From Modestobacter lapidis (GTDB lineage Bacteria > Actinomycetota > Actinomycetes > Mycobacteriales > Geodermatophilaceae): a stretch of DNA of 64,000 bases. The translations under genes and the position numbers were made by a program. Positions 7,805 to 34,192 of this stretch are shown one piece after another; position 1 is the stretch's first letter; the number at the start of each line of letters is the position of its first letter. The notes under the pieces are model-generated. The model did no database searches. It saw only the letters and a list, made by a program, of their open reading frames with translations, and was not told the DNA's origin. Where the stretch lies: contig JABAKE010000005.1 of NCBI GenBank assembly GCA_019779905.1, positions 186,001 to 250,000 of the forward strand. Reading direction: 5' to 3'.

Positions 7805-8707
7805 GTGACGACGGAGCCGAGTTCGACCTCCCGCGCCGGCGGTCGGGAGGCCCGGCTCGCGCCGCTGATCACCACGGTCCTGGGTCTCTACGCCCGGGCC
7901 GAGGGCAACTGGCTCTCCGTCGCGTCCTTGATCTCGCTGATGGCGGACGTCGGAGCCGAGGCGCAGGCGGTGCGGTCCTCGATCTCCCGGCTGAAGCGCC
8001 GCGGTGTCATCCACGCTGAACGGCAGCGGGGCGCGGCCGGCTACAGCCTGGCCGGCTCCACACTCGAGGTGCTGGCCGAAGGTGACGTCCGGATCTTCGA
8101 GCGCCGGCGGGCGACGGTCGCGGACGGCTGGGTCCTGCTGGTGTTCTCCGTGCCCGAGTCCGAGCGGGAGAAGCGGCACTCGCTCCGCACGAGCCTGACC
8201 GGCCTCGGCTTCGGCACCGCGGCCCCCGGGGTGTGGCTGGCACCCGGCAACCTCGAGTCGGAGACCCGCCACACCCTGGACCGGCGGGGCCTGTCCTCCT
8301 ACGTCGACATCTTCCGGGGCGAGTACGTGGCGTTCGGCGATCCGGGCGGCAAGGTGCGCGGCTGGTGGGACCTGGACGAGCTCACCGAGCTGTACACGGA
8401 CTTCCTGCACCGTTACCGGCCGGTCCTGCACCGGGCGACGTCGAACGGCATCGAACCGCAGGAAGCGTTCCGGACGTACGTACCGATGCTGACCCACTGG
8501 CGGCGGCTGCCCTACCGCGATCCGGGCCTTCCGATGTCCCTGCTCCCGCCCGGCTGGATCGGCGAGAGCGCCGGCGCGTTGTTCGACGAGCTCAACTCCG
8601 TCCTGGCCCCCCTCGCCCAGAAGCACGCGATGTCGGTCATCCACGGTGGGCCCGCGCGGAACGCCGGGGCGGGGCCGGCCGGGGCGCCGGGGCCCGCGAC
8701 GTCGTGA
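7805..8707 (+). CDS. PaaX-family transcriptional regulator
   Basis: A 300-residue protein with the three PaaX parts: an N-terminal winged helix (SVASLISLMADVGAEAQAVRSSISRLKRRG, cited in pieces: SLISLMADVG then AVRSSISRLKRRG, about residues 40-70), a central ferredoxin-like domain starting at WVLLVFSVPE, and a C-terminal domain with WWDLDEL and FRTYVPMLTHWRRLPYRDP. PaaX proteins repress phenylacetate or related aromatic genes and release DNA on binding the acyl-CoA intermediate. The GTG at 7805 is taken as the start because homology begins there; the frame is open further upstream without protein-like sequence. It faces the 2-aminobenzoyl-CoA-type operon tail to tail and is the obvious local regulator, although its operator is not recognised. 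Confidence 0.87.
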   Translation: MTTEPSSTSRAGGREARLAPLITTVLGLYARAEGNWLSVASLISLMADVGAEAQAVRSSISRLKRRGVIHAERQRGAAGYSLAGSTLEVLAEGDVRIFERRRATVADGWVLLVFSVPESEREKRHSLRTSLTGLGFGTAAPGVWLAPGNLESETRHTLDRRGLSSYVDIFRGEYVAFGDPGGKVRGWWDLDELTELYTDFLHRYRPVLHRATSNGIEPQEAFRTYVPMLTHWRRLPYRDPGLPMSLLPPGWIGESAGALFDELNSVLAPLAQKHAMSVIHGGPARNAGAGPAGAPGPATS

Positions 8708-8781: not shown

Positions 8782-11160
8782 TCAGGCGACCGGAGCGCTG
8801 TCCTCGTTCGGCGTCCACCGCACGTGGACGGTGGCGGCCTTCCCGGCGCGGAGCAGGGCGAGCCGCGGCGGGATCTTGTCGGTGCGCGAGGTGGGCGGCC
8901 TGCGCCGGCCGGCCCGGAACTGCTCCGGCCACTGCGCCCCCTCGCCCTGGTACTCCTGCTCGGCTGCCGCGTGGAGCGTCCACTGGGGGTCGTAGAGGTG
9001 GCTCCGGCCCAGGGCGCAGAGATCCGCGCGGCCCGCGAGCAGGATCGAGTTGACGTCGTCGTAGGAGGAGATGGCACCGACGGCGATGACCTTCGCCCCG
9101 GCCGGCGCGGCGACGACGTGCCGGATCCGGTCGGCGAAGGGCGTCTGGTACGACCGCCCGAACGCCGGCTGCTCGTTCTTGGCGATCTGCCCCGACGACA
9201 CGTCGATGGCGGCCGCGCCGTGCTCGACGAAGGCACGGGCGATCTCCACGGCGTCGTGCTCGGTGTTGCCGTCGGGCAGCCAGTCGCTGGCGGAGATCCG
9301 GACGGTCACCGGGATCGTCTCCGGAACCACCCGCCGGACGGCGTCGAAGACCTCCAGCGGGAAGCGCAACCGGTTGGCCAGCGAGCCGCCGTACTCGTCG
9401 GTCCGCCGGTTGGCGACCGGCGAGAGGAACGCGGAGAGCAGATAGCCGTGCGCGGCATGGAGCTCGATGAGGTCGAACCCGGCCGCGACGCCACGCTGCG
9501 CGGCGGTGACGAAGTCGGCCAAGACCTTGTCCAGGTCCGCGCGGTTCGCCTCCCGCGGCATGTGGCAGCCCTCGCCGTAGGCCAGGGCGGAGGGGCTGAT
9601 GACCTCCCAGTTGTTCTCCGGGAGCGGCTCGTCGATGCCCTCCCACATGAGCCGGGTCGACCCCTTGCGCCCGGAGTGCCCGAGCTGCAGACCGATCTTG
9701 GCCGAGGTGCGTTCGTGCACGAAGTCGGTGACGCGGCGGTAGGCGTCGCGCTGCCCGTCGTCCCACAGCCCGGTGCAGCCGGGGGTGATGCGGCCTTCGG
9801 GTGAGATGCAGACCATCTCGGTCATCACCAGTCCGGCACCACCCAGGGCCTTCGAGCCCAGGTGGACCAGGTGGAAGTCATCGGGCACGCCGTCCCGGGC
9901 GCTGTACATGTCCATCGGTGACACCACGACCCGGTTGGGCAGCGTCAGCGGGCCGATGTCGACGGGCTGGAACATGGCCGGCACCACCTCTGCCGAGCCG
10001 TTGGCCTCGGCGAACGCGGACTCGACCTGGTAGGCGAAGTCGGCGTCACGCTCCTTGAGGTTCTCGAAGGTGATCCGGCGGGACCGGGTCAGCAGGTTGA
10101 AGCAGAACTGACCCGGCTCCTGGTCGGCGTACATGTTGATGTTCTCGAACCACTCGAGCGAGGCCTGCGCCGCCCGCTGGGTCGACTCCACCACGGGCTT
10201 GCGCTCGGCCTGGTACGCCGCGAGGGCGGCGTCCACGGTGGGGTGCTCGTGCAGGCACGCGGCCAACGCCAGGGCGTCCTCCATCGCCAGCTTGGTGCCC
10301 GACCCGATGGAGAAGTGCGCGGTGTGGGCGGCGTCGCCGAGCAGCACCACGTTGCCGTGGTGCCAGGACTGGTTGCGGACGGTGACGAAGTTGAGCCACT
10401 TGGAGTTGTTCGTCAGCACCGAGTGGCCGGCGAGCTCGTCGGCGAAGATCTCCGCGATCCGCTCGACCGCGTAGTCGTCGGAGACGCCCGGCGGGAAGTT
10501 CTGGCTCTCCGTGGCGTCGAAACCGGCGCGGCGCCATACGTCCTGGTGCATCTCGACGATGAACGTCGAGCCGCTGTCGGAGTAGGGGTACCCGTGGATC
10601 TGCATGGTGCCCCACTCCGTCTGCTTGACGAAGAACTGGAAGGCCTCGAAGACCAGGTCCGTCCCGAACCAGATGTACTTGTTCTGCCGGTGGTCCAGGG
10701 ACGGGCGGAAGGCGTCGGCGTACTTGGTGCGGATCCGGGAGTTCAGGCCGTCCGCGGCCACGACGAGGTCGTGCGCGGCCCGCAGCTCGTCGACGTCGGG
10801 CGCCTCGGTCTCGTAGTGCACCGTGACGCCGAGTTCGGCGACGCGCTCCTGGAGGAGGTGGAGCAGGTCCTTGCGGCCCATCGCCGCGAAGCCCTGGCCA
10901 CCGACGGTGAAGGCGTGTCCGTTGAACTCGATGTCGATGTCGGTCCACCGGGCGAACCGGCGCGCCATCTGCTCGTGGATCACGGTGTCGGCACCCTCGA
11001 TGCCGCCCAGGGTCTCGTCGGAGAAGACGACGCCGAACCCGAAGGTGTCATCGGGAGCGTTGCGCTCCCACACGGTGACGTCGTGACCGGGGTCGAGCTG
11101 CTTCATCAGGGCGGCGAGGTAGAGCCCACCCGGTCCACCGCCGGCGATTGCGATCTTCAT
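8782..11160 (-). CDS. Fused flavin monooxygenase/old yellow enzyme, 2-aminobenzoyl-CoA monooxygenase/reductase or salicylyl-CoA 5-hydroxylase type
   Basis: A 792-residue two-domain flavoprotein. Residues 1-390 are a class A flavin monooxygenase: the FAD motif IAGGGPGGLYLA at the N-terminus and GDAAHT at 275-280. Residues 396-770 are an old-yellow-enzyme/NADH:flavin reductase barrel, seen in LTLPNRVVVSPM, HAAHGYLLSAFLSP and GGSLANRLRF. This fusion is known for 2-aminobenzoyl-CoA monooxygenase/reductase of Azoarcus, which hydroxylates and then reduces the ring of anthraniloyl-CoA, and database relatives are also named salicylyl-CoA 5-hydroxylase. The start, MKIAIAGGG at 11160, is 12 bases after a CoA ligase of the 2-aminobenzoate type, which favours the anthranilate reading. 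Neither substrate is proven. It ends the operon and converges on paaX. Confidence 0.88.
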   Translation of the reverse strand: MKIAIAGGGPGGLYLAALMKQLDPGHDVTVWERNAPDDTFGFGVVFSDETLGGIEGADTVIHEQMARRFARWTDIDIEFNGHAFTVGGQGFAAMGRKDLLHLLQERVAELGVTVHYETEAPDVDELRAAHDLVVAADGLNSRIRTKYADAFRPSLDHRQNKYIWFGTDLVFEAFQFFVKQTEWGTMQIHGYPYSDSGSTFIVEMHQDVWRRAGFDATESQNFPPGVSDDYAVERIAEIFADELAGHSVLTNNSKWLNFVTVRNQSWHHGNVVLLGDAAHTAHFSIGSGTKLAMEDALALAACLHEHPTVDAALAAYQAERKPVVESTQRAAQASLEWFENINMYADQEPGQFCFNLLTRSRRITFENLKERDADFAYQVESAFAEANGSAEVVPAMFQPVDIGPLTLPNRVVVSPMDMYSARDGVPDDFHLVHLGSKALGGAGLVMTEMVCISPEGRITPGCTGLWDDGQRDAYRRVTDFVHERTSAKIGLQLGHSGRKGSTRLMWEGIDEPLPENNWEVISPSALAYGEGCHMPREANRADLDKVLADFVTAAQRGVAAGFDLIELHAAHGYLLSAFLSPVANRRTDEYGGSLANRLRFPLEVFDAVRRVVPETIPVTVRISASDWLPDGNTEHDAVEIARAFVEHGAAAIDVSSGQIAKNEQPAFGRSYQTPFADRIRHVVAAPAGAKVIAVGAISSYDDVNSILLAGRADLCALGRSHLYDPQWTLHAAAEQEYQGEGAQWPEQFRAGRRRPPTSRTDKIPPRLALLRAGKAATVHVRWTPNEDSAPVA

Positions 11161-11171: not shown

Positions 11172-12830
11172 TCACTGCGACGAGGCAAGCGTGCTTGCCC
11201 GCTCTTCTTCGACGGTGCGGCGCAAGATGTAGTGCTGGAGCTTGCCGCTGGTGTTGCGCGGCAGGGATCCGCTGAAGCGGACGTCGCGCGGGTACTTGTA
11301 CGGAGCCAGCTGCTGCTTGACGTGGTCCTGGATCTCCTTGGCCTTCGCCGCGTCCCCGGCCACCCCGTCGCGCAGCACCACGAAGGCGCAGACGATCGAT
11401 CCGCGCTCGGCGTCCGGTTTCGCGACGACGGCCGACTCGACCACGTCGGGGTGCGTGTCGATCGCGGCCTCGACCTCCGGGCCTCCGATGTTGTAGCCGG
11501 AGGAGACGATCATGTTGTCGGTGCGCGCGCAGTAGTGGAAGTAGCCGTCCTCGTCCCGGTAGAAGGTGTCGCCGGTGACGTTCCAGCCGTCCACGACGTA
11601 GCTCTGCTGCCTGTCGTCGTCGAGGTAGCGGCACCCGACCGGCCCGATCACCGCGAGCCGCCCCTCGGCTCCGGCGGGCAGTTCCTCCCCGTCGGGGCCG
11701 AGGATGGTCGCCCGGTACCCGGGCACCGGCATGCCGGTGGCACCGGGCCGGATGTCGTCGCCGGTGGCGGAGATGAAGATGTGGAGCAGCTCCGTGGCAC
11801 CGATGCCGTCGATGATCCGCAGCCCCAGCTCCGCCTCGATCTGCTCCCACACCGGTTGCGGGATGTGCTCTCCGGCGCTGACCGCGTTCCGCAGGCTGCG
11901 TAGCTGGCCGATCTTCCCGGACCGGAGGATCTGCTTGTAGGCGGTCGGCGCCGTGGCCAGCACGGTGACCCGGTGCTCCTCGACGAGGTCGGCCAGGCGC
12001 GGCGGAGTCGCGGCCTCGACCAGGAACATGCACGCCCCTGCCCGCAGCGGGAACACCAGGAGCATCCCGAGGCCGAAGGTGAAGGCGAACGGGGCGGTGC
12101 AGGCGACGAGGTCGTCGGCGTGCAGGCGCAGCAACCCCCGGCCGAAGGTGTTGTCGATGGAGAGCACGTCACGGTGGAAGTGCATGGTCAGCTTCGGGAC
12201 GCCGGTGCTCCCCGACGTCGGTCCGAACAGCGCCACGTCGTCGGCCGCGGTGTCGACGTTGACGAACTCCCCCGACTTCGCGGCGCAGCGGGCGACGAGG
12301 TCGTCGCTGCCCTCGCCGCCGAAGGGGACGACGACGAGCTGCCCTGCCGCGGTGTCCCGGACCACCGCGACGTCCTCGGTGTACCGGTGGTCGACCAGGG
12401 CGACCGTCGGCTGGGCCTTGGTCACGACCGGCGCGAGCTCCCGGGCGCGCAGCGCCGGCATGGTCAGGACGACGATGCCGCCGGCCTTGAGCACGCCCAG
12501 CCACGCGGCGACGGTCCAGGGGTTGTTCGGCGAGCGCAGGAGCACCCGGTTGCCCGGCACGAGCCCGAGGTCCTCGACGAGCACCTGGGCCACCTGGTTC
12601 GCGCGCCGCTGCAGGTCACCGTAGGACCACACCTCGCCGGTGTCGGTCCGGATCGCCGGGCGGTCGGGGCCGTGGGTGGCGACCGCGACGTCGATGAGCT
12701 CGCCGGCGGCGTTGAGCCGCTCGGGGTACTGCAGTTCGGGGGTGGTGAACTCCAGGCGCGGCCACTGCTCGAACGGCGGCAGGTGATCACGGGCGAAGGT
12801 GTCGGTGTGGGAGCTGGGGAACAGCTGCAT
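11172..12830 (-). CDS. Aryl-CoA ligase, probable 2-aminobenzoate-CoA ligase
   Basis: A 552-residue ANL-superfamily ligase. The AMP-binding P-loop FGPTSGSTGVPK sits at 202-213, the adenylation motif GIGATELLHIF near 345, the hinge YFHYCARTDNMI later, and the catalytic C-terminal Lys in NTSGKLQHY. The N-terminal pattern HTDTFARDHLPPFEQWP is one I associate with the 2-aminobenzoate-CoA ligase branch of the benzoate-CoA ligase family. It would activate the aromatic acid with ATP and CoA and feed the fused monooxygenase encoded 12 bases downstream. Benzoate, salicylate or other ortho-substituted benzoates remain alternative substrates. It is in the same minus-strand operon as a thioesterase and a cupin. 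Confidence 0.88.
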   Translation of the reverse strand: MQLFPSSHTDTFARDHLPPFEQWPRLEFTTPELQYPERLNAAGELIDVAVATHGPDRPAIRTDTGEVWSYGDLQRRANQVAQVLVEDLGLVPGNRVLLRSPNNPWTVAAWLGVLKAGGIVVLTMPALRARELAPVVTKAQPTVALVDHRYTEDVAVVRDTAAGQLVVVPFGGEGSDDLVARCAAKSGEFVNVDTAADDVALFGPTSGSTGVPKLTMHFHRDVLSIDNTFGRGLLRLHADDLVACTAPFAFTFGLGMLLVFPLRAGACMFLVEAATPPRLADLVEEHRVTVLATAPTAYKQILRSGKIGQLRSLRNAVSAGEHIPQPVWEQIEAELGLRIIDGIGATELLHIFISATGDDIRPGATGMPVPGYRATILGPDGEELPAGAEGRLAVIGPVGCRYLDDDRQQSYVVDGWNVTGDTFYRDEDGYFHYCARTDNMIVSSGYNIGGPEVEAAIDTHPDVVESAVVAKPDAERGSIVCAFVVLRDGVAGDAAKAKEIQDHVKQQLAPYKYPRDVRFSGSLPRNTSGKLQHYILRRTVEEERASTLASSQ

Positions 12831-12912
12831 CGGAGGTCCTTCCGGAGCCGAAGGGGAGCCGAGGGAGGCGCCGTGCCCGGAGGCCGGTGCCGTGCCGGAG
12901 GGAGGACCGGCC

Positions 12913-14583: not shown

Positions 14584-14994
14584 ATGCCCCCGATCCCCGT
14601 GAACCCCACTGCACTGCCCGCGCCGACCGGCTACTCCCACGGGACGCTGGCCGGGAACACGCTGTACCTGGGCGGTCAGACCGCCCTGGACAAGGACATG
14701 AAGATCGTCGAGGGCGGCATCGTCGAGCAGTTCCATCAGGCGTTCAGCAACGTCCTGACCACGCTGCGCGAGGTCGGCGGTCAGCCCGAGGACCTGGTCA
14801 GCATCACGCTGTACATGACCGACATCCCCGACTACCAGGCCCACGGTCGGGAGATCGGCCGGGTGTGGCGGGAGATCGCCGGGCCGGTCTACCCCGCGAT
14901 GGCCGGCATCGGCTGCACCGCGCTGTGGCAGCCGGAGGCCATGATCGAGATCCTCGGCGTCGCCGTGATCCCGGAGGACCGCCTCCGGGCGTGA
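14584..14994 (+). CDS. Rid (YjgF/YER057c/UK114) family protein
   Basis: A 136-residue protein of the Rid family, with the typical TLYLGGQTALD, QAFSNVLTTLREVGG and LVSITLYMTD blocks. Archetypal RidA hydrolyses enamine/imine intermediates and needs an Arg in the C-terminal PAR motif. Here the matching segment is PAM (Met106), so the key Arg appears to be missing and the protein likely belongs to one of the Arg-less Rid subfamilies. It is transcribed divergently from the 2-aminobenzoyl-CoA-type operon, whose product could carry an enamine. That makes a role in that pathway attractive, but the missing Arg weakens a simple deaminase call. A GGAGG site lies 7 bases before the ATG. Confidence 0.85.
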   Translation: MPPIPVNPTALPAPTGYSHGTLAGNTLYLGGQTALDKDMKIVEGGIVEQFHQAFSNVLTTLREVGGQPEDLVSITLYMTDIPDYQAHGREIGRVWREIAGPVYPAMAGIGCTALWQPEAMIEILGVAVIPEDRLRA

Positions 14995-18312: not shown

Positions 18313-18346
18313 GGCGTGACCCACTTCACCCCTGGAGGGAGCCTCC

Positions 18347-18739
18347 GTGGCAGACGCACCAAACGCCCCCCTCGCGGGTCGCTCGTCCGTGACCACGGGG
18401 AACAGCGCGGGCGTCGTGACCGAGCTGCGAATCCCTGACCGCCTGACCGCGTCGTCGGGCCGCCACTACGTCCCGGGGACCGAGGCGCTCGTCCGACTGC
18501 CGCTCTACGTGGCGCAGCGCGATCGGGAGGCGGGACTCCGCACCGGCGTCCTCATCTCGGGCCATCCCGGCTCACCCCTCGGCGGGCGCGGCCTCACCCT
18601 CGATCGCGAGGCCGATCCTTCTCGCGGGCACGGGGTCGTGCACGTACCGGCCGGCAACGAGGAGCAGGCCACCACGGCCGGGATCCGAAAAGACGTCGTT
18701 GCTGGTCATCCCACACGCCGACGAGACCACGCCACGTGA
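18347..18739 (+). pseudogene. Truncated N-terminus of an indolepyruvate ferredoxin oxidoreductase paralogue
   Basis: The 130-residue frame matches only the first ~120 residues of the 1208-residue oxidoreductase at 24017-27643: DRLTASSGRHYVPG, VRLPLYVAQRDREAGLR, LISGHPGSPLGG and PAGNEEQA align with the corresponding segments of the full protein. Homology runs to about GHPTRRRDH and then the frame stops; the remaining >1000 residues, including the ThDP, iron-sulfur and gamma domains, are missing. It has a GGAGGG site and its TGA overlaps the GTG of the next gene (GTGA), so it may still be translated as a leader-like ORF. No function is assigned; it is probably the relic of a deletion or duplication. 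Confidence 0.75.
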
Positions 18740-20379
18740 CCACGACGGTCGCGGACCTCGTGGGCGGGGCTCTCTCCTCGCGCGGCGCGCGGCACGCCTT
18801 CGGTCTGGTGGGCAGCGGCAACTTCGACCTCTCGAACGCCTTGGTCACCTCCGGCATGACATTCACAGCAGCTCGTCACGAGACGGGAGCCGTGATGATG
18901 GCCGACGCCTACGCCAAGGTCTCGGGCCAGGTAGGCGTGGTGACGCTGCACCAAGGGTGCGGTCTCACGAACGCCGTCACAGGCATCGCCGAGGCAGCCA
19001 AGAGTCGTACGCCGATGGTCGTGCTGGCAGCAGACACGGCGGCCGCGTCGGTCAACTCGAACTTCCGGATCGACCAAGAGGCACTGGTGCGCTCGGTGGG
19101 TGCGGTCTCCGAGCGCGTCCACGGCGCAACCTCTGCCGCCGAGGACATCCGCCGGGCCTGGCACCGTGCGGTGGCCGGGAGAAGCACGGTCGTCCTGCAC
19201 CTGCCCACCGACGTGCAGGCACTCACGGTCCCCGACCCGACGCCCTTGCCGCTGCCGTGCTCGCCACTCCCGGTCCGTCCCTCCGCGGAGGCGGTCAGTG
19301 CCGTGGCGGACCTTCTGGACAGGGCCGAACGTCCACTCCTCCTCGCCGGGCGCGGGGCGCAGGGGCATCGGGACATGCTCGAGCGGCTCGGCGATCTGAC
19401 CGGAGCAGTGCTCACGACGACGGCGGTGTGCCGCGGGTTGTTCGCCGGCAGCGAGTGGTCCGTCGACGTCTGCGGTGGTCTGGCGTCCCCGACAGCTGCG
19501 CGCCTCATCGCCTCGGCGGACGTGGTCGTCGCCTTCGGCGCTGCGCTGACGATGTGGACCACCAAGCATGGCGCGCTGGTGGACGGCGCGGCAGTGGTGC
19601 AGATCGACGACGACGTCACGGCGCTCGGCCGCCACCAGTCGGTCGCCCTCCCTGTCCTCGCAGACGTGGGTGAGGCGGCAGCGGCGCTCGTGGCCGAGAT
19701 CGAGGACCGCGGGACGGGTAACGGCGGTCGCCGCACACCGGAACTGGCACATCAGATCGCCGAGGGTTCGTGGTCGGCGGAGCCGTTCGACGACGTGAGC
19801 TCTGCCGACGCCATCGATCCTCGGGCCTTCTCGTTGGTGCTGGATCGGGCACTGCCCCCGGCGCGGACGGTCGTGCTGGACTCCGGGCATTTCCTCGGTT
19901 GGCCGTCCCGCTATTTGTCGGTCCCGGACGAACGCGGCTTCGTCTTCAGCCAGTCCTTCCAGTGCGTGGGGCTCGGCCTCTCGTCGGCGATCGGTGCCGC
20001 GATAGCGCGTCCGGACCGGCTCGCCGTGGCCGCCCTGGGCGACGGCGGTGCTCTGATGGGGCTCGCGGAGCTGGAGACGGTCGGGCGGCTGGGCCTCCAC
20101 ATCGCCGTCGTGGTCTACAACGACCAGGCGTACGGCGCCGAGGCACACCACTTCGGGCCGGCCGGCAAGGCGCTGGACCTGGTGCGTTTCCCCGACACGG
20201 ATTTCGCCGCTCTCGGCCGGGCCGTGGGGCTGGAAGCAGTGACCATCCGTCGCGCGCAGGACGTGCAGCAGGTTGTCGCCTGGGTGAACAGCGGGTCGCG
20301 CTCCGGAATCGTCATCGACGTCAAGGTGGTGCCCACGCTCGTGGCCGATTGGTTGGAGGACGCCTTTGTCCGTCACTGA
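18736..20379 (+). CDS. Thiamine-diphosphate-dependent enzyme (acetolactate synthase/benzoylformate decarboxylase superfamily)
   Basis: A 547-residue three-domain ThDP enzyme. The Pyr domain holds the catalytic Glu49 in AARHETGAVMMADAYAK. The middle domain runs over about 190-340. The PP domain carries the cofactor motif beginning GDGGALMG (about 435) and ending near VVYND (about 463). Family members decarboxylate or ligate 2-oxo acids (acetolactate synthase, benzoylformate or phenylpyruvate decarboxylase, sulfoacetaldehyde acetyltransferase). No small regulatory subunit lies nearby, so biosynthetic acetolactate synthase is unlikely. Its place between a relic of indolepyruvate oxidoreductase and an NMT1-type importer points to catabolism of an imported 2-oxo acid or its precursor. 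The substrate cannot be read from sequence. Confidence 0.87.
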   Translation: MTTTVADLVGGALSSRGARHAFGLVGSGNFDLSNALVTSGMTFTAARHETGAVMMADAYAKVSGQVGVVTLHQGCGLTNAVTGIAEAAKSRTPMVVLAADTAAASVNSNFRIDQEALVRSVGAVSERVHGATSAAEDIRRAWHRAVAGRSTVVLHLPTDVQALTVPDPTPLPLPCSPLPVRPSAEAVSAVADLLDRAERPLLLAGRGAQGHRDMLERLGDLTGAVLTTTAVCRGLFAGSEWSVDVCGGLASPTAARLIASADVVVAFGAALTMWTTKHGALVDGAAVVQIDDDVTALGRHQSVALPVLADVGEAAAALVAEIEDRGTGNGGRRTPELAHQIAEGSWSAEPFDDVSSADAIDPRAFSLVLDRALPPARTVVLDSGHFLGWPSRYLSVPDERGFVFSQSFQCVGLGLSSAIGAAIARPDRLAVAALGDGGALMGLAELETVGRLGLHIAVVVYNDQAYGAEAHHFGPAGKALDLVRFPDTDFAALGRAVGLEAVTIRRAQDVQQVVAWVNSGSRSGIVIDVKVVPTLVADWLEDAFVRH

Positions 20380-20508
20380 CTGACGCGCGGGCGCAGGTCG
20401 AGTGCTCCAGTGCCGACCGATGGATGACCGACTTCCCCGAATGCAGCGACGGGGGCCGTGAGCCCGCTGTCGAGCAGCAAACCGCCAGGACTGGCACGAG
20501 GAGTGCAG

Positions 20509-21345
20509 GTGCTCAAGAACGAGAATTCCCCCGAGGGGCGACAGCCGACGACCGAGTCGGAGGCACGGATCTTCGTCGAGGATCTGGAGGTCGCCTACGC
20601 GACACCCAGCGGTTCCCGTGTGCATGCCGTCGTGGACTTCTCGCTCGACATCCGACGCGGTGAGTTCCTCACCCTGATCGGTCCCTCCGGCTGCGGCAAG
20701 ACGTCGATCCTGAAAGCGGTCGGCGGGCTGATCACGCCGGACGGCGGAGACGTCCGTATCGGGGACACGATCGTCACAGGCCCCGTCCCGGACCAGGTCG
20801 CTTACGTGTTCCAGGACTTCGCACTCTTTCCCTGGCGTACGGCCCTGGGCAATGTCGAAGTGGCTCTCGAGCTGAAGAAGGTCCCCAAGGCTGAGCGACG
20901 GGAACGGGCCCGCGAGGCTCTGGCTACGGTCGGGCTCGCCGATGCTGCAGACCGTCATCCGCACGAGCTGTCCGGTGGCATGAAGCAGCGCGTGGCCGTG
21001 GCGCGGGCACTGGTGTCCAACTGCGACGTGCTCCTGCTCGACGAGCCGTTCGGCGCTCTCGACGAGCAGACGAGACTCGTGCTCGGAACCGAGCTCCTAC
21101 GGATCCTGGAATCTCTGGGCAAGACGATCATCTTCGTCACCCACAACCTCCAGGAGGCGGTGTACCTCTCCGACAGGGTGGTGGCCATGTCGGCGCGTCC
21201 CGCGCGCATCAAGGAGATCATCGAGGTGGACATCCCTCGGCCCCGCTCACCCGACATCATGGTCAGCGAAGCGTTCACCGAGATCCAGCGCCATCTCTTC
21301 AGCCTGCTGTACGAGGAATCGGCGTTGGCGATGAACCAGCCATGA
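20509..21345 (+). CDS. ABC transporter ATP-binding protein (nitrate/sulfonate/NMT1 type)
   Basis: About 278 residues, SsuB/TauB-like. Walker A GPSGCGKTS, Q-loop VFQDFALFPWRT, signature LSGGMKQRVAVARAL, Walker B VLLLDEPFGALDEQ and the switch His in FVTHNLQEA are all present. PFGALDEQTR and the FPWRT Q-loop are typical of the nitrate/taurine/sulfonate importer group. GTG at 20509 is preferred because GAGGAG lies 5 bases before it; an alternative GTG at 20458 would add 17 residues without clear homology. The stop overlaps the permease start (ATGA). It energises import through the two permeases encoded downstream. Confidence 0.88.
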   Translation: MLKNENSPEGRQPTTESEARIFVEDLEVAYATPSGSRVHAVVDFSLDIRRGEFLTLIGPSGCGKTSILKAVGGLITPDGGDVRIGDTIVTGPVPDQVAYVFQDFALFPWRTALGNVEVALELKKVPKAERRERAREALATVGLADAADRHPHELSGGMKQRVAVARALVSNCDVLLLDEPFGALDEQTRLVLGTELLRILESLGKTIIFVTHNLQEAVYLSDRVVAMSARPARIKEIIEVDIPRPRSPDIMVSEAFTEIQRHLFSLLYEESALAMNQP

Positions 21346-22091
21346 CAGCGACCAGGCTCGGGATCTATCTCGGCGTCCCCTTCCTCATCCTGCTCGCCTG
21401 GTTCCTCCTCGCCATCAGCGAGGTGGTCAATCCCTTCCTGCTGCCGTCTCCGATCGAGGTGGCTCGCGACCTGGGCACCGTCCTGACCGACAGCGCCACC
21501 TACCCCCACCTGTGGACCACGCTGCGCCAGGTTCTCCTGGCGTTCGGGCTCGCCGCAGCGCTCGGCATCGGGATCGGTCTACCGATCGGGTGGTATCGCA
21601 CCCTCCGGAAGGCCTACGAGCCCGTGCTGGGCATGGTCTACGCGGTCCCGCTCGTCGTCCTGTACCCCGTCATCGCACTCTTCTTCGGCATCGGCGCCAC
21701 GTCCAAGATCGTCTTCGGCGCGCTGTACGCGTTCTTCCCGATCGTGCTCGCCACCATCTCCGCGGTCTCGCTCGTCGACCAGAACCTGGTGTCCGCGGGC
21801 CGCTCCATGGGAGCGCGCGGGGCGACGCTCTTCCGGACCGTCGTGCTGCCGGCCGCACGACCTCGCATCATGGTCGGACTCAGACTCGGGATCATCCTCG
21901 CGACGCTCGCCGTCGTCGGCGGTCAGTACATCGCGGGCACGTCCGGACTGGGTTACCTGCTGGCCACCGCGGGTCAGTCGTTCCAGACGGTGCTGATGTT
22001 CGCCTACATCGTCCTCACCCTTGCCTTCGCCGTGCTCGTCAACGGGCTGATGGCGGCGCTCGATCACTACACCAACAGGAGCTTGACATGA
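21342..22091 (+). CDS. ABC transporter permease (first of two)
   Basis: A 249-residue SsuC/TauC-like inner-membrane permease with about six hydrophobic segments. The EAA-type coupling loop reads SAGRSMGARGATLFRTVVLPAARP (cited in part: GRSMGARGATLFRTVVLP). It is coupled by ATGA overlap to the ATPase upstream and the substrate-binding protein downstream. Most transporters of this family use one permease as a homodimer; here a second, different permease follows the binding protein, so a heterodimeric channel is likely. Confidence 0.87.
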   Translation: MTATRLGIYLGVPFLILLAWFLLAISEVVNPFLLPSPIEVARDLGTVLTDSATYPHLWTTLRQVLLAFGLAAALGIGIGLPIGWYRTLRKAYEPVLGMVYAVPLVVLYPVIALFFGIGATSKIVFGALYAFFPIVLATISAVSLVDQNLVSAGRSMGARGATLFRTVVLPAARPRIMVGLRLGIILATLAVVGGQYIAGTSGLGYLLATAGQSFQTVLMFAYIVLTLAFAVLVNGLMAALDHYTNRSLT

Positions 22092-23125
22092 CGAACAGAC
22101 CAGCCCTCGCTCGATTCGGCACACTGGGCGTGGCCCTCACCCTGGCCACGCTGACCGCGGCATGTGGTGGAGGCGACGACGCCTCCGGCTCGCAGGCCGG
22201 CGGCGGTGGGGAGGGTCAGGCCAGCGAGGTGACGGTCGGGCTCGTCGTCGACAGGACCTTCGAGCACGCCGTCGTACCGAAGATCACCGAGGAAGTCGGC
22301 TGCTTCGACGAGCAGAACCTGGACGTGGAGATCGTCGCCTTCCAGGGTGGCGCTGACCTGGTCAAGGGCATGCTCTCGGGAGTGGTGGACATCGGTGCAG
22401 CCACCGGTTTCGACCCTCCGGCCGCGGCGGCCAAGGGCGTGCCGATGCAGGCCTTCTACGGTGTCGCCGAGCGGTCCCCGTTCGTCGCCATCGCGGCCCC
22501 CGACTCCGGTATCGAGTCCATCGAGGACCTGGTCGGGCAGAACGTCGGGATCACGAGGTTCGGCAGCGCCACGGACTACGTCGTCCGTGTCCTCGCGGAC
22601 GAGGCGGGCAGTCCCGGCGGCATCACCGCCGTGCCCCTCGGCGGCAATCCCGCGGACCATGTGGCCGCCATGCAGCGTGGCGACATCTCCGCGTTCATCT
22701 GGTCGACGGAGGTCGGGCTGGGCCTCGAGGCGTCCGGTGACGGGACGATCATCGAGCGCTTCGCCGACGTGGTGGAGGAAGACCAGTACGCCGTACTGAT
22801 GGCGCAGCCGGACTACCTGGAGGCGGAATCGGAAACCGTCGAGCGATTCGTGCAGGCCTACAGCTGCGGCATCGAGTGGATGCAGGACGAGGCGAACAGG
22901 GAGGAAGCCGTCCAGCTCACGGCCGAGTACCTCGACCTGGAGCCGACGGTGGCCGAGGCGACGTACGAGGAGCTCGTCGGCAACCTCAACCCGCAGGGTG
23001 ACATGAGCACCGCCGGGCTGGAGCAGCTGGCCTCGGTCCTTCCCGATCTGGAACTCGCCGACCGCGTTCCTGAGCCCGAGGAGTTCACCACCGACGAGTT
23101 CGTGCCGGTCGGCGAAGGAGGCTAG
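22088..23125 (+). CDS. Lipoprotein substrate-binding protein, NMT1/THI5-like
   Basis: A 345-residue ABC binding protein. An N-terminal signal with lipobox LTAAC (Cys26) is followed by a Gly-rich linker. The mature part has the NMT1-like pattern: an early VTVGLVVDRTFEHA strand, GCFDEQNLDVEIVAFQGGADLVKGMLSG (cited in part: CFDEQNLDVEIV), and a VDIGAATG loop, then a second lobe beginning EDLVGQNVGITRFG. The family binds sulfonates, nitrate, hydroxymethylpyrimidine and, in some actinomycetes, aromatic acids. The gene starts inside the stop of the first permease. The ligand is not predictable, but the ThDP enzyme and the oxidoreductase in the same operon suggest an organic acid. Confidence 0.87.
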   Translation: MTNRPALARFGTLGVALTLATLTAACGGGDDASGSQAGGGGEGQASEVTVGLVVDRTFEHAVVPKITEEVGCFDEQNLDVEIVAFQGGADLVKGMLSGVVDIGAATGFDPPAAAAKGVPMQAFYGVAERSPFVAIAAPDSGIESIEDLVGQNVGITRFGSATDYVVRVLADEAGSPGGITAVPLGGNPADHVAAMQRGDISAFIWSTEVGLGLEASGDGTIIERFADVVEEDQYAVLMAQPDYLEAESETVERFVQAYSCGIEWMQDEANREEAVQLTAEYLDLEPTVAEATYEELVGNLNPQGDMSTAGLEQLASVLPDLELADRVPEPEEFTTDEFVPVGEGG

Positions 23126-23128
23126 TCC

Positions 23129-23947
23129 GTGTCTGCTGTCACCTTCCGCCGGGTCGGCGGGGAGCCACAGGCCCGCCGGGCCGTCCGGCCCGGCGGGGCC
23201 GGGATGAGCCCGGTGATGCTCCGGGTCCTCACCCTCGCCGCGGTGGTCCTCGGTTGGGAGGTGCTTGCTCGGCTCTACCTCCAGGACAGCCTCTTCCTCG
23301 CGGGGCCCGTCGCGATCGTCCAGGCGATACCGGGGACCCTGAGCGACCCGGCGGTGCGCGAGGCTCTCGCGATCACCGCAGGAGAGTTCCTCCTGGCGTT
23401 CGCGATCGCCACGATCGCCGGAGTGCTCTTCGGAGCGCTGCTGGGCGCGACCCGTCGAGCGTTCGCACCATCGCGGAATCTGCTGCAGATGGCGTTCTCC
23501 CTGCCTCAGGTCGCCCTCTATCCCCTGTTCGTGCTCTGGCTGGGCTTCGGGTTCTCCTCGAAGGTCGTCTTCGGGATCACCCACGGCATCTTCCCGGTGC
23601 TGCTCGGGACCATGGCGGCGACCAAGATGGTCGACCCGAATCTCGTCACCTCGGTGCGGGCCATGGGAGGTGGTCGCAGGACAATCCTGCGCAAGGTGGT
23701 CCTGCCCTCGATCCTGCCGGAGGTCGTCTCGAGCCTTCGGGTCGCTGCGGCACTGACGCTGCTGGGGGTGCTCCTCGCCGAGCTGATGGTCTCCGTCGGC
23801 GGAGTCGGAGCCATGCTCCACAGCCTGTCGTCGAGTTTTGCGCCTGCACGTCTGTACGCGCTCATCGCAACCGTGTGTGCCGCGGCGATCGCCGTGAACC
23901 TGGTCCTAGGGTTCTTCGAGCGCCGCTTATCGAGGTGGCGGCCGTGA
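23129..23947 (+). CDS. ABC transporter permease (second of two)
   Basis: A 272-residue permease with a GTG start 3 bases after the binding-protein stop and a strong GAAGGAGG site within that gene's end. It has about six membrane segments after a 26-residue basic N-terminus, and an EAA loop SVRAMGGGRRTILRKVVLPSILPE (cited in part: VRAMGGGRRTILRKVVLP). It is clearly diverged from the first permease, so this is not a recent tandem duplication. Together they probably form a heterodimer. A 69-base gap separates it from the oxidoreductase gene. Confidence 0.87.
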   Translation: MSAVTFRRVGGEPQARRAVRPGGAGMSPVMLRVLTLAAVVLGWEVLARLYLQDSLFLAGPVAIVQAIPGTLSDPAVREALAITAGEFLLAFAIATIAGVLFGALLGATRRAFAPSRNLLQMAFSLPQVALYPLFVLWLGFGFSSKVVFGITHGIFPVLLGTMAATKMVDPNLVTSVRAMGGGRRTILRKVVLPSILPEVVSSLRVAAALTLLGVLLAELMVSVGGVGAMLHSLSSSFAPARLYALIATVCAAAIAVNLVLGFFERRLSRWRP

Positions 23948-24016
23948 CGGCGGTGCGGCTGCGGCGTCCGCCGTTATCAGAACCGGTCGACCGAACGTCC
24001 GAGAGGAGCTCTTCCT

Positions 24017-27000
24017 GTGTACATCGACGAGCGATCGAACAAGGATTCTGGAACTGACTTCGGGATCAACGACCGACTGACCGCTCGCGACGGTCGATTC
24101 TACTTCTCCGGAATGTCGATGCTGGTCCGTCTCCCCATCGAGCAGGCCCGCCGGGATCGAGCCAGCGGTCTGCGGCCGGGGACGCTCATCAGCGGCTATC
24201 CGGGCAGCCCGATGGGCGGCTACGACCTCCAGCTGCAGCGCAGCTCCGCGGTGCTCGAGCAGGAGGACATCCGTCTGCTCCCGGCAGGCAACGAGGAGCA
24301 GGCGGTCACCGCCCTCATGGGCACCCAGATGCTCGACGGGTACCCGCACGAGCGCTACGACGGCGTCAACGGGTTCTGGTACGGCAAGGGGCCCGGTGTC
24401 GACCGCTCCGGTGATGCGCTGAAGCACGCCAACTTCGCCGGTACGAGCAAGGATGGCGCCGTCGTCGTCTTGTCCGGGGAGGACCACGAAGCCAAGTCGT
24501 CGACCATGCCGTTCCAGCAGGAGTACGCCTTCGTCTCGGCCGGCATCCCGATCGTGTACCCGTCGTCGATCGCGGAGTTCCGGACACTGGGCCTGCACGC
24601 GGTGGCGATGTCGCGGTACGCCGGCTGCTGGGTGTCCATGAAGCTGACCAGCGCGCTGTGCGACGGCGGCGAGGTGGTCGAGGTCCACAGCGACGACGTG
24701 TCCTGTCATGTGCCGGAGGACGGCTTCGACAAGCGGGTGGACTTCTCGTTCTTCCCCGGGAAGAACATCGACCAGGAACGGCATCTGTACATCGACAAGC
24801 ACGCCGCAGTCCTGCGCTACGCCCGTGCCAACGGGCTGAATCGACAGGACGGCGGGCGGCCGGACGACCGCATCGGCATTATCACGGCCGGGAAGAGCGC
24901 GGCTGACGTTCGTCAGGCCCTGCTCGATCTCGGACTCGACCCGGTGCGTCTCGCAGGAACGGGCGTCCGCATGCTGACGGTCGGCCTCGTCTACCCCCTC
25001 GACGAGGAGGCCGTGCGGGACTTCTGCTCCGGGCTCGAGGAGGTGGTGGTCGTCGAGGAGAAGCGGGGGTTCCTCGAGGACGCGGTCAAGACCGCCCTGC
25101 AGCCGCTGGCCCAGGCGATCCGGGTCGTCGGCAAGTGGGACGAGGACGGTCGACCCCTGTTCCCGGTCGAGGGCGGCATGGATGCCGACGTCATCGCCGG
25201 CCCACTGGCAGCACGCCTGACGCCCATCGTGCCGGCCGTAGGGGATGCCCCGCGGCTACGCGAGCTGGCCGCCGTGGCCGGGCGTTCCTACGACCTGCAC
25301 CAGGGACGTACTCCGAACTACTGCTCCGGATGTCCGCACAGCGCCAGCACCGTCATGGCCGAGGGGCAGATCGCCTGGAGCGCGCCGGGCTGCCACTGCT
25401 TCGCCACGGTCATCGAGCAGCCTGAACGACACATCGACACCATGACGCACATGGGCGGTGAAGGGCTGCCGTGGATCGGGCTGGCGCCGTTCACCGAACA
25501 TCCGCACCTGGTGCAGCAGATCGGCGACGGATCGCTCTACCACTCGTCCTACCTCAACATCCGGTGGGCCGTCGCAACCGGTACTCGCATGACCTTCAAG
25601 CTTCTCTACAACGGCGTGCTGGCCAACACCGGCGCGCAGGCTGCGCCCGGCCAGCACGGCCTGGCCGCGCTCACGCGCGGACTGGAGTCCGAGGGCGTCC
25701 GTCACATCGTCATCTGCACGAAGGACCCCGGCCAGTACCGCGGTCAGCGGCTGGGGAGGGGCGTGCAGATTCGCGACGCCGAAGAGATGATCGCCGTGGC
25801 GCGGGAGCTCGAGGACATCGACGATGTGACGGTCATGATCTACGACGAGTCCTGCGCGAACGAGCGGCGGCGGCAGATCAAGCGCGGGCTCCTGAAGGCT
25901 CCCAGCGAACACGTGCTGATCAATGAAGGCGTATGCGAGAACTGCGGTGACTGCGGAGCCAAGAGCAACTGCATGAGCTTGCAGAAGACACCGACGGAGT
26001 TCGGGCCAAAGACCCGGATCCACACCTCCTCGTGCAACGACGACTATTCGTGCGTCAAGGGCGAGTGCCCCTCCTTCACGACGGTGACCGTCCGGGAGGG
26101 GACGGGGTACCGGAAGCCCGTCGTGGTGCCACTGGCGGCGGATGACCTGGTCGCACCACCCGCCACCGGACCTCTTGCCGAGGCGTTTCACCTCTACATG
26201 CCCGGGGTCGGTGGCACCGGGGTTCTCACCACGAATGCGGTGCTCGCCTTCGCCGCCCTGCTCGACGGACACCACGTCATCTCCTTCGACCTCACTGGTG
26301 CCGCGCAGAAGTGGGGGCAGGTGCTGTCCAGCCTGGTCGTGCTCCCCGGCGACGCGGCGGTGTGGTCGCCACTCGGCGGAAGGGATGCCGGTCCGGTGGC
26401 CGAGGCGAAGGCGTCGGCGCACACGAACAAGGTCGGGAAGGGACGGGCGGACGTGTACCTCGCGCTCGACGAGGTGGGCAGTGTCACGCCGGTCAACCTC
26501 GACCGCTGTTCACCTGAACGGACGGCCACGGTAATCAACACCGATCTGTTCCCGACCGGTGAAATGGTCCGCGATGTCTGGCACAGCGTGGACACCGGCG
26601 CGATGCGTGAGTCGATTTCGAGGTACGTCCGTCCCGGGGGTGTCCACACCGTCCCGGCGCGGGGCATCGCGGAGACCCTGTTCGGCGACTACATGATGAC
26701 CAACATCGTCGCGGTCGGGGCCGCCTACCAGGCGGGCCTGCTGCCGCTGAGCGCGGAGGCCATCGAGGCAGCCATCCGGCTGAACGGCGTCGCGGTGGAG
26801 CCCAACGTGCAGGCGTTCCGCTACGGACGGCTCTGGGTGCAGGAACCGGAGCGCATCGCCCGGCTGCTGGACCCACCCGCCCTCGGGGTCGAGGAGGAAC
26901 GGGTGCAGCGGGCCGACGGCCTGTCTCCGCGCGCAAGGGCGAGCTACGCGGAGCTCAACCACCGTGTCGACGCGGCGGCAGTCGACGACGAGGTGCGTCG

Positions 27001-27643
27001 GCTGCTGGCGGTACGGCTGGCCGAGCTCATCGACTACCAGTCGCCCGACTACGCGCAGGAGTACCTCGACTGCGTTCTCACGGTCGCCAAGCACGAGTCG
27101 GTCGCGACACCGGGGAGCTCCGCGGTGACGAGCGCCGTCGTCCGCGGTCTGTTCAAGCTGATGGCCTACAAGGACGAGTACGAGGTCGCGCGGCTGTATC
27201 TGAGCGACGAGTGGCGCGAGCATGTCCGCAACACCTTCGAGGCGCCCGTCTCGGTTTCCTACAACCTCCAGCCCCCACTGCTGCGACGGCTCGGCTACGA
27301 CGGCAAGGTCCGCGTCGGTGATTGGTTCACGACGGCGTTCCGTCTCCTTCGATCGGGACGACGGTTGAGGGGCACCCCGTTCGATCCATTTGGGCGCCAG
27401 GCTTCTCGCCGAGAGGAACGCGAGCACATCGCCTGGTACCGCGACGTGCTGTTCCAGGCGCTCCCGCAACTGCGCCCGCTCACGGCGGAAACCGTGGCGG
27501 CGATCGCCGACCTGCCCGACCTGATCCGCGGTTACGAGCAGGTCAAATCTTCCAATGCGGCCAAGGCGCAGCAGCGGGCGGTGGAGTTGCTCGCCTCGCT
27601 GGAGCGACCGATGTTGCGGGTGACGCCAAAAGCCCCGGCCTGA
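24017..27643 (+). CDS. Indolepyruvate ferredoxin oxidoreductase family protein (fused alpha-beta form)
   Basis: A 1208-residue fused 2-oxo-acid:ferredoxin oxidoreductase, the usual length for the bacterial aerobic form. The N-terminal Pyr-type domain has LISGYPGSPMGGYD and PAGNEEQA. A ThDP-binding core lies around 430-600 (YCSGCPHSASTVMAEG, then THMGGEGLPW). A ferredoxin-like cysteine cluster sits at about 640-683 (CENCGDCGAKSNC plus later Cys in SSCNDDYSC and GECPSF). The gamma/IorB-like domain starts at GVGGTGVLTTNAVLAFAAL near 735. The enzyme oxidatively decarboxylates aryl-pyruvates to aryl-acetyl-CoA, passing electrons to a ferredoxin. In aerobes this serves aromatic amino-acid or phenylpyruvate degradation. 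The GTG start has GAGAGGAG upstream. It ends the operon before a strong hairpin. Confidence 0.9.
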   Translation: MYIDERSNKDSGTDFGINDRLTARDGRFYFSGMSMLVRLPIEQARRDRASGLRPGTLISGYPGSPMGGYDLQLQRSSAVLEQEDIRLLPAGNEEQAVTALMGTQMLDGYPHERYDGVNGFWYGKGPGVDRSGDALKHANFAGTSKDGAVVVLSGEDHEAKSSTMPFQQEYAFVSAGIPIVYPSSIAEFRTLGLHAVAMSRYAGCWVSMKLTSALCDGGEVVEVHSDDVSCHVPEDGFDKRVDFSFFPGKNIDQERHLYIDKHAAVLRYARANGLNRQDGGRPDDRIGIITAGKSAADVRQALLDLGLDPVRLAGTGVRMLTVGLVYPLDEEAVRDFCSGLEEVVVVEEKRGFLEDAVKTALQPLAQAIRVVGKWDEDGRPLFPVEGGMDADVIAGPLAARLTPIVPAVGDAPRLRELAAVAGRSYDLHQGRTPNYCSGCPHSASTVMAEGQIAWSAPGCHCFATVIEQPERHIDTMTHMGGEGLPWIGLAPFTEHPHLVQQIGDGSLYHSSYLNIRWAVATGTRMTFKLLYNGVLANTGAQAAPGQHGLAALTRGLESEGVRHIVICTKDPGQYRGQRLGRGVQIRDAEEMIAVARELEDIDDVTVMIYDESCANERRRQIKRGLLKAPSEHVLINEGVCENCGDCGAKSNCMSLQKTPTEFGPKTRIHTSSCNDDYSCVKGECPSFTTVTVREGTGYRKPVVVPLAADDLVAPPATGPLAEAFHLYMPGVGGTGVLTTNAVLAFAALLDGHHVISFDLTGAAQKWGQVLSSLVVLPGDAAVWSPLGGRDAGPVAEAKASAHTNKVGKGRADVYLALDEVGSVTPVNLDRCSPERTATVINTDLFPTGEMVRDVWHSVDTGAMRESISRYVRPGGVHTVPARGIAETLFGDYMMTNIVAVGAAYQAGLLPLSAEAIEAAIRLNGVAVEPNVQAFRYGRLWVQEPERIARLLDPPALGVEEERVQRADGLSPRARASYAELNHRVDAAAVDDEVRRLLAVRLAELIDYQSPDYAQEYLDCVLTVAKHESVATPGSSAVTSAVVRGLFKLMAYKDEYEVARLYLSDEWREHVRNTFEAPVSVSYNLQPPLLRRLGYDGKVRVGDWFTTAFRLLRSGRRLRGTPFDPFGRQASRREEREHIAWYRDVLFQALPQLRPLTAETVAAIADLPDLIRGYEQVKSSNAAKAQQRAVELLASLERPMLRVTPKAPA

Positions 27644-33085: not shown

Positions 33086-33088
33086 CGG

Positions 33089-34000: not shown

Positions 34001-34113
34001 CGGGATCTCCCGGGGGTGGGGCGGCGAGGACGACCGGGCCTACCGTCGGAGCGGAGCTGCGGCCGCGGCAGGGCGGGAGCTCGAGCAGGACCTGGATGGC
34101 GGGGACCTTAGGA

Positions 34114-34130: not shown

Positions 34131-34192
34131 CAAGCCTTCCGACGCCGTCGGCCGCCGTGCCGGAAGGTGCCGCAGCGCGGGGTTCCCGAGCG

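Follow-up and report, generated by a model that had tools for sequence, protein, structure and literature searches.

The stretch of DNA analysed here, a 64-kb window from Modestobacter lapidis, contains a plus-strand run of open reading frames (18347-27643), with short gaps or overlaps between neighbours in the ORF listing, in which gene modules of recognised families stand in an arrangement found nowhere else sampled. This operon was tentatively read as a module that brings an aryl-glyoxylate into catabolism, most plausibly isatinate (2-aminophenylglyoxylate) or a close analogue, at a probability of roughly 0.45. Aryl-glyoxylates were favoured over aryl-pyruvates because the close relatives of its indolepyruvate ferredoxin oxidoreductase-type (IOR) and ThDP-dependent enzymes have 2-hydroxyacid dehydrogenases, benzoylformate decarboxylases (BFD), isatin-hydrolase-type enzymes and salicylyl/2-aminobenzoyl-CoA monooxygenases as neighbours. 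The operon consists of six intact genes and one IOR stub, and the order after the stub is ThDP enzyme, ATPase, permease, NMT1-type binding protein, permease and fused IOR, as follows.

18347..18739, plus strand: IOR stub, ~105 aa of truncated N-terminus of the fused-IOR family (PRK13030, E 6.5e-20)
18736..20379, plus strand: ThDP-dependent enzyme of 547 aa, proposed aryl-glyoxylate decarboxylase (three Pfam TPP domains, N/M/C)
20503..21345 (alternative start 20458), plus strand: ABC transporter ATPase (Pfam ABC_tran)
21342..22091, plus strand: ABC permease of the TauC/SsuC/SaoP superfamily (Pfam BPD_transp_1)
22088..23125, plus strand: NMT1/SsuA-type putative solute-binding lipoprotein (Pfam NMT1, 6e-23)
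23129..23947 (alternative start 23204), plus strand: second ABC permease (Pfam BPD_transp_1, 1.8e-17)
24017..27643, plus strand: fused 2-oxoacid:ferredoxin oxidoreductase of the indolepyruvate ferredoxin oxidoreductase family, 1208 aa (PRK13030)

An earlier note on this DNA had described seven genes in one direction, with a ThDP enzyme and a ferredoxin-type IOR beside one importer. These families were confirmed by Pfam and NCBIfam profiles and the seven same-strand ORFs are present, but the first of them is a stub and not a separate seventh function, because it matches the N-terminus of the operon's own IOR family. About 105 residues of this 130-aa ORF align to positions 12-116 of the 1170 positions of PRK13030, and the stub is 49% identical to the N-terminal part of the intact IOR in this operon and 52% to the C338 paralogue. 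The stub is preceded by a good ribosome-binding site (GGAGGG, 18334-18339) and its stop overlaps the start codon of the ThDP gene, for which no separate ribosome-binding site is evident. Judged from these sequence features, the stub is probably a relic of an IOR gene, broken when the ThDP gene became attached downstream of the IOR start, and it may now provide the ribosome-binding site and translational coupling for the ThDP gene. A sigma-70-like promoter spotted by eye upstream of the stub failed a consensus scan and was discarded. Apart from the stub, every frame is intact; GC3 lies between 0.82 and 0.90, and the catalytic motifs are conserved.

The AlphaFold model of the ThDP enzyme (pLDDT 86) has a ThDP-enzyme fold, and fold searches recovered the common ThDP fold alone and did not separate the candidate functions. 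In the alignment, S27, E49 and H72 were invariant across the ThDP family and two BFD-like proteins, and we take them to be the equivalents of the BFD catalytic residues Ser26, Glu47 and His70. At the His72 position, the ALS-like, HACL and BbmA sequences in the alignment carry Thr. The column that presumably corresponds to His281, the third BFD catalytic residue, is occupied by Trp274 in the window enzyme. The whole-protein profiles placed the family nearer to BbmA, HACL, benzaldehyde lyase and ALS than to BFD. The BFD model PRK07092 (cut-off 493) was absent from the best 25 NCBIfam matches, the 25th of which scored 137.7 bits; BFD ranked high only in a profile containing a BFD-like row, and when that row was removed it fell outside the best 60. 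On the family score, the plain name benzoylformate decarboxylase was rejected for the window enzyme. Sulfoacetaldehyde acetyltransferase coupled to a sulfonate/taurine importer was also rejected, all models being far below cut-off (213 bits against 620 for the Xsc-type NCBIfam model). The window enzyme forms a long, deep branch with at most ~54% identity to other family members, and its substrate may have changed relative to that of its family.

The fused IOR is a full-length member of the PRK13030/PRK13029, DUF6537 family with intact motifs, scoring 1209.7 bits against the curated PRK13030 cut-off of 816 and matching DUF6537 as well. Eleven Cys residues and the ThDP GDG motif (G503-D504-G505) were invariant in 21 IOR homologues. 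The window IOR forms a clade with those of C338, G104 and Variovorax (support 100/100), and a ThDP/BFD-type enzyme was found within ~9 kb at 5/5 loci of this clade against 1/23 others, or 4/4 against 1/23 when independent loci were compared (p = 2.8e-4). The one exception outside the clade is R. opacus (0/22 before it was included), where, in strain VOC-14, an alpha-hydroxyacid oxidase gene and mdlC come after the fused IOR gene. The G104 locus encodes an FMN 2-hydroxyacid dehydrogenase besides its BFD-like protein, and in the C338 paralogue cluster such a dehydrogenase stands with an enolase-superfamily protein, a ThDP enzyme and the IOR. The clade and its neighbours thus suggest that the window enzyme, unlike the family as named, may act on an aryl-glyoxylate and not on indolepyruvate.

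Among the importer components, the ATPase scored best with NCBIfam models of the SaoA, NtrCD and TauB type, all below cut-off, and the first permease (21342..22091) was below every specific NCBIfam cut-off. The binding protein reached 82.3 bits with NMT1 against the Pfam gathering score of 20.5, 100.8 bits with SsuA against a cut-off of 163.5 and 58.9 bits with TauA against 304. It is an orphan (<30% identity to the others found) with a lipoprotein-like N-terminus and a poor structure model (pLDDT 61). Its mechanically listed ORF, from 21512, is over-extended and the gene starts at 22088.

At ~0.4-15 kb of the same window lies an aryl-CoA cluster, which the earlier note had not linked to the operon, with the following genes.

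2229..3800, plus strand: PaaZ/BoxD-type aldehyde dehydrogenase of the aryl-CoA ring-cleavage kind (TIGR02278, 713 bits, cut-off 562.8; also PRK11903, 636 bits, cut-off 444)
7805..8707, plus strand: PaaX-family regulator (Pfam domains PaaX, PaaX_M and PaaX_C; TIGR02277, 147 bits, below cut-off)
8782..11160, minus strand: 2-aminobenzoyl-CoA monooxygenase/reductase-type protein, ABMR (PRK08255, 1210.5 bits, cut-off 1078)
11172..12830, minus strand: aryl-CoA ligase of the benzoate-CoA ligase family (TIGR02262, 324 bits, cut-off 375)
12913-13848, minus strand: TesB-type thioesterase, in the same cassette as ABMR
13845-14339, minus strand: cupin protein, in the same cassette as ABMR
14584..14994, plus strand: RidA-family protein (TIGR00004, E 5e-13, below cut-off)

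The NCBI name of the ABMR family is bifunctional salicylyl-CoA 5-hydroxylase/oxidoreductase. Homologues of the aryl-CoA ligase adjoin ABMR in relatives, those of the PaaX-family regulator are present in relatives' ABMR cassettes, and a RidA homologue was found in every ABMR cassette compared; in the window, ABMR, aryl-CoA ligase, RidA and PaaX-family regulator all lie near the ThDP gene. The cassette is a separate block 3.4 kb upstream of the operon, with ABMR 7.6 kb from the ThDP gene and two unrelated gene regions (15070-16934 and 17327-18100) in between. The upstream part of the window resembles the Azoarcus-type 2-aminobenzoyl-CoA (anthranilate) pathway in its ligase, monooxygenase/reductase fusion, thioesterase and beta-oxidation-type genes, and differs in its link to a 2-oxo-acid operon, a candidate ligase-free source of the CoA ester.

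The full operon set did not turn up in 112 family genomes or in order- and class-level samples (~400 each) that were searched for close IORs, the gene calls in many relatives being made by a codon-usage script and not taken from annotated gene order. The seven genes that the earlier note had treated as one set are thus not together in relatives, an outcome that this note had named as counting against its reading. ThDP enzyme with importer, IOR with importer, and IOR with a benzoylformate-decarboxylase-like enzyme were found as recurring modules, and since only such sub-modules are kept, the operon appears as their local assembly. ThDP relatives lie directly behind an isatin-hydrolase-type gene, and the isatin-hydrolase-type protein of G075 matches solved isatin hydrolases (E 8e-80 to 9e-71). 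In six family genomes of three genera, 0.8-2.3 kb separate the ThDP gene from ABMR, and an aryl-CoA ligase and RidA accompany them; the gene calls gave an isatin hydrolase in 5/6 of these genomes and a PaaX-family homologue in 3/6. The same ThDP-isatin hydrolase-ABMR-ligase-RidA set, with a MarR gene, was found on a Deinococcus plasmid. Among family genomes, the ThDP gene was present in 22 of the 26 with ABMR and in 37 of the 86 without it (p = 2.4e-4, by counts that ignore shared ancestry). The cassettes combining isatin hydrolase, ThDP enzyme and ABMR (family genomes L046, L099 and L153-L155; Deinococcus psychrotolerans plasmid L157) share with the window the ThDP family, ABMR, aryl-CoA ligase and RidA, several of them with a PaaX- or MarR-family regulator, whereas the window has no isatin hydrolase and carries importer and IOR inside its ThDP operon. 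The isatin-hydrolase type had no match in the window's own genome, where PF04199 is represented by two long-form proteins only, elsewhere in the genome; isatin itself is therefore an unlikely direct substrate. A two-subunit IOR is similarly placed: an isatin hydrolase is present in 40 of the 50 plasmid records that have a Tsukamurella-type IorA (39 within 30 kb, 19 within 5 kb), and IOR, isatin hydrolase and ABMR occur together in Tsukamurella and Alloyangia. The fused window IOR has just 24% identity to the Tsukamurella IorA, so this context counts as analogy.

In the proposed route, the NMT1-type ABC importer would take up the aryl-glyoxylate or a precursor. The ThDP enzyme would convert the acid to the aryl aldehyde, followed by oxidation and activation by the aryl-CoA ligase, and in parallel the fused IOR would form the aroyl-CoA from the same acid by oxidative decarboxylation, saving the ATP of the ligase and giving reduced ferredoxin. 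The aroyl-CoA may then pass into the neighbouring ABMR cassette, as its position and the relatives suggest. The general logic suggested earlier agrees with this context, namely import, ThDP chemistry and oxidative decarboxylation of an aromatic 2-oxo acid; the specific form, aryl-acetyl-CoA from an aryl-pyruvate, is the weaker one, as relatives' neighbours point to aryl-glyoxylate and aroyl-CoA.

Breakdown of aryl-pyruvates or aromatic amino acids, with the IOR making indoleacetyl- or phenylacetyl-CoA and the ThDP enzyme acting as a phenylpyruvate/indolepyruvate decarboxylase, would agree with the name of the IOR family, with the PaaX-family regulators in the window and (by eye) beside the C90 IOR operon, and with the PaaZ-type dehydrogenase of the window. 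It is considered unlikely, as the loci of the closest IOR relatives contain BFD, 2-hydroxyacid dehydrogenase and a salicylyl/2-aminobenzoyl-CoA-type monooxygenase, and the genes recognised near the operon include neither an aminotransferase nor a phenylacetyl-CoA epoxidase. A mandelate-type role seems rather doubtful: mandelate or a 2-hydroxyarylacetate would be imported, the dehydrogenase coded elsewhere, and the aryl-glyoxylate processed by ThDP enzyme and IOR with no tie to indole or isatin. The C338, G104 and R. opacus clusters, which join the IOR with a 2-hydroxyacid dehydrogenase or oxidase and a ThDP enzyme, BFD or mdlC, speak for it, and the mandelate pathway (mdlC) shares with the window the proposed aryl-glyoxylate chemistry and the conserved BFD Ser, His and Glu; mdlC-like genes also adjoin this type of IOR in R. 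opacus VOC-14 and in G104. However, the window ThDP enzyme scores outside the BFD family, its operon lacks a 2-hydroxyacid dehydrogenase, and the upstream type of cassette is tied to isatin hydrolase in relatives.

The best NCBIfam and PDB matches of the ThDP enzyme (Xsc, ALS, HACL, BAL and BbmA), together with importer components resembling taurine/sulfonate types, would suit a lyase or carboligase of the acetolactate-synthase, 2-hydroxyacyl-CoA-lyase or sulfoacetaldehyde-acetyltransferase kind, with a 2-oxo or 2-hydroxy acid as its product and not its substrate. We regard this as quite improbable, given that all such NCBIfam models are far below cut-off, that Ser27 and His72 are kept as in BFD and that ThDP relatives have isatin-hydrolase neighbours. 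A chance patchwork, in which recombination joined importer, ThDP enzyme and IOR with unrelated substrates and part of the operon may be decaying, could account for the IOR stub, the orphan binding protein and the absence of the full set from the genomes sampled; the intact frames, their GC3 and conserved motifs, and the recurring pairs of ThDP enzyme with importer, IOR with importer and IOR with ThDP enzyme make it very unlikely.

The aryl-glyoxylate reading may be compared with the iad auxin-degradation locus known in Variovorax, Bradyrhizobium and Achromobacter, with its proposed isatinate node, isatin-hydrolase/kynurenine-formamidase-like IadI, IOR-type IadA/IadB and aromatic-acid ABC uptake (PMC9613470, PMC12633357); iad-like loci were also found in Roseibium and Ruegeria. 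The observed intermediates C8H7NO3 and C7H7NO (PMC12633357) have formulae that would fit isatinate and 2-aminobenzaldehyde. The proposed role of the window operon is alike in the isatinate node, the IOR-type genes and the aromatic-acid ABC uptake, whereas its IOR is fused, unlike the separate IorA/IorB subunits (IadA/IadB), and it has a ThDP enzyme and an NMT1-type importer. No IadD/IadE-type Rieske dioxygenase pair or isatin hydrolase was recognised among the gene calls in or near the operon. The sole Rieske protein examined in the window is GbcA-like and lies at 43 kb.

Isatin and isatinate are named intermediates in bacterial auxin and indole breakdown, and in the published work compared the step from isatinate to anthranilate has no assigned enzyme and the iad marker genes IadA/IadB have no stated role. 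The recurrence of isatin hydrolase near ABMR, accompanied by a ThDP enzyme in some loci and an IOR in others, offers two concrete, assayable candidates, and the window is of interest because one operon holds both types and an importer. It is conceivable, though we hold it somewhat doubtful, that the isatin-hydrolase-paired ThDP family, which spans Actinomycetota, Deinococcota and further phyla, represents an isatinate decarboxylase not yet described and that IOR-type enzymes make 2-aminobenzoyl-CoA directly from isatinate. If so, the missing isatinate-to-anthranilate step and IadA/IadB of auxin-degrading loci would get assignments, and the operon would be a naturally assembled fork with both isatinate routes and its own importer.

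The earlier note had placed an NMT1-type importer, a ThDP enzyme and a fused protein of the indolepyruvate ferredoxin oxidoreductase (IOR) family in one run, and the family scans bore out these assignments. The seven-gene, one-direction run claimed there is present on one strand at 18347–27643, but its first ORF is the N-terminus of an IOR with no separate function.

Genes of the operon (family scan, except the stub)
18347–18739, +, IOR stub ORF, 130 aa (PRK13030 match)
18736–20379, +, ThDP enzyme (three TPP domains all present)
20458 or 20503 to 21345, +, ABC ATPase
21342–22091, +, ABC permease
22088–23125, +, NMT1-type binding lipoprotein
23129 or 23204 to 23947, +, second ABC permease
24017–27643, +, fused IOR-family protein, 1208 aa

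In the profile scan, the stub aligned to positions 12–116 of 1170 in PRK13030 (E 6.5e-20), and it shares 49% identity with the N-terminal part of the IOR that closes the operon. Its strong ribosome-binding site is retained, and its stop overlaps by 4 bases the ThDP start codon (18736), which lacks an obvious ribosome-binding site of its own. From this arrangement we infer a cut-off IOR gene whose start would now drive the ThDP gene.

The IOR was matched at E ≤ 1e-100 in only 12 of 112 same-family genomes and at >60% identity in only one other (G104), and the class and order samples of about 400 genomes each gave no closer match. The check on gene-set conservation had a mixed outcome; the full set was not seen in any of these samples, whereas pieces of it recur. 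Elsewhere in the same genome, one locus (C90) has a PaaX-like gene beside binding protein-ATPase-IOR-permease-permease, and another (C338) combines an IOR, an FMN 2-hydroxyacid dehydrogenase and an enolase-superfamily protein with a ThDP enzyme belonging to the same family as the operon's (50% identity). NMT1-type importers adjoin ThDP relatives in three genomes (G091, G055, G024) and on a Rhodococcus plasmid.

The window ThDP protein forms a long, deep branch. Its S27, E49 and H72 are invariant in the alignment of 21 family members and two proteins like benzoylformate decarboxylase (BFD), in columns which we take to be BFD Ser26, Glu47 and His70; Thr occupies the H72 position in ALS-like, HACL and BbmA sequences. 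Membership of the BFD family was ruled out because whole-protein profiles lie nearer ALS-like, HACL and BbmA than BFD, and Trp stands in what is presumably the His281 column. The family may still work like BFD.

In a tree of 21 fused IORs, the window IOR grouped with those of C338 and G104 (99/99) and then with Variovorax plasmid proteins (100/100). A ThDP/BFD-type gene lies within about 9 kb at 5/5 loci of this clade (window, C338, G104, two Variovorax) against 0/22 other loci first compared, or 1/23 after adding Rhodococcus opacus VOC-14, where fused IOR, alpha-hydroxyacid oxidase and mdlC occur together (p = 2.8e-4 with the near-identical Variovorax pair counted once and kinship ignored). 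The G104 partner enzyme scored 445 bits on the BFD model (cut-off 493) and adjoins an FMN 2-hydroxyacid dehydrogenase, and the Variovorax loci add a salicylyl-CoA-hydroxylase-like protein, gentisate 1,2-dioxygenase, an aryl-AMP ligase-like protein and an aldehyde dehydrogenase. This gene context favours aryl-glyoxylates as candidate substrates. On Rhodococcus DK17 plasmid pDK3, a fused IOR (L085, 8974–12498, and neighbours) sits inside a long catabolic run with a cyclase, thiolases, aldehyde dehydrogenase and F420-dependent oxidoreductases.

Outside the importer-linked clade, a PF04199 gene precedes the ThDP gene in nearly all of the family genomes examined; the PF04199 protein of G075 matched isatin hydrolases of solved structure with E-values from 8e-80 to 9e-71. 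Six genomes, from three genera, have the ThDP gene 0.8–2.3 kb from a salicylyl-CoA 5-hydroxylase/oxidoreductase-type gene with the domain make-up of 2-aminobenzoyl-CoA monooxygenase/reductase (ABMR), accompanied by aryl-CoA ligase and RidA, and by our own gene calls with an isatin-hydrolase-type gene in 5/6 and a PaaX-family homologue in 3/6. A Deinococcus psychrotolerans plasmid carries an equivalent cassette with a MarR-family gene. Across the family, the ThDP gene occurs in 22/26 ABMR-bearing versus 37/86 other genomes (p = 2.4e-4, kinship ignored). In three genomes (L047, L100, L116), tryptophan 2,3-dioxygenase and class-III-aminotransferase-like genes adjoin the isatin-hydrolase-type and ThDP pair, hinting at a tryptophan branch.

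The window's own ABMR cassette (7805–14994) lies 3.4 kb upstream of the operon, and its ABMR has 78–86% identical homologues in four relatives. For four ABMR homologues in relatives (L136, L139, L144, G055:C15:18034-20388), the search reported a single TGA inside the matched stretch, which could mean a pseudogene, readthrough or an alignment that continues beyond the stop. Between cassette and operon (15070–16934, 17327–18100) lie secreted-looking proteins together with a beta-lactamase-fold hydrolase. At 4410–7688, next to the aryl-CoA cluster, are an amidase that scores above the PRK07487 cut-off and a protein of the tannase/feruloyl-esterase family, which possibly free aromatic acids from esters or amides. 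Further along are an apparent betaine/proline catabolic region (31928–44414; proline dehydrogenase, L-glutamate gamma-semialdehyde dehydrogenase, GbcA-like Rieske oxygenase, 2Fe-2S reductase, BCCT-like transporter, DapA-family protein) and two neighbouring 93-aa ORFs resembling, by eye only, a Phd/YefM antitoxin and a RelE-type toxin (45321–45880).

In the aerobic iad loci, IAA is broken down to anthranilate by way of isatin and isatinic acid, and the exclusive markers given for these loci are IorA/IorB (IadA/IadB) (PMC9613470). A 2025 preprint assigned iadC-K2 to steps, leaving iadA and iadB unmentioned, and detected C8H7NO3 and C7H7NO ahead of anthranilate (PMC12633357); the formulae fit isatinate and 2-aminobenzaldehyde, an identification made here. 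A plasmid search with the two-subunit IorA of Tsukamurella returned 50 records, among them many close relatives (19 Sulfitobacter records), and 40/50 also carry an isatin-hydrolase-type gene, which lies within 30 kb in 39 of them and within 5 kb in 19. In Tsukamurella and Alloyangia, a single neighbourhood contains all three of IOR, isatin hydrolase and ABMR. This context serves as an analogy for the window, because the Tsukamurella IorA and the window's fused IOR share just 24% identity. No paper linking the IOR name with benzoylformate and no description of an isatinate decarboxylase were found in the literature, the coverage of which was incomplete, so these negatives are weak evidence of novelty.

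Aryl-glyoxylate chemistry is proposed as the best explanation of the operon with moderate confidence, and isatinate in particular with lower confidence because the genome has no match to a close isatin hydrolase. The operon would take up an aryl-glyoxylate and process it by two routes, non-oxidative through the ThDP enzyme and oxidative through the IOR, and would supply the neighbouring aroyl-CoA pathway.
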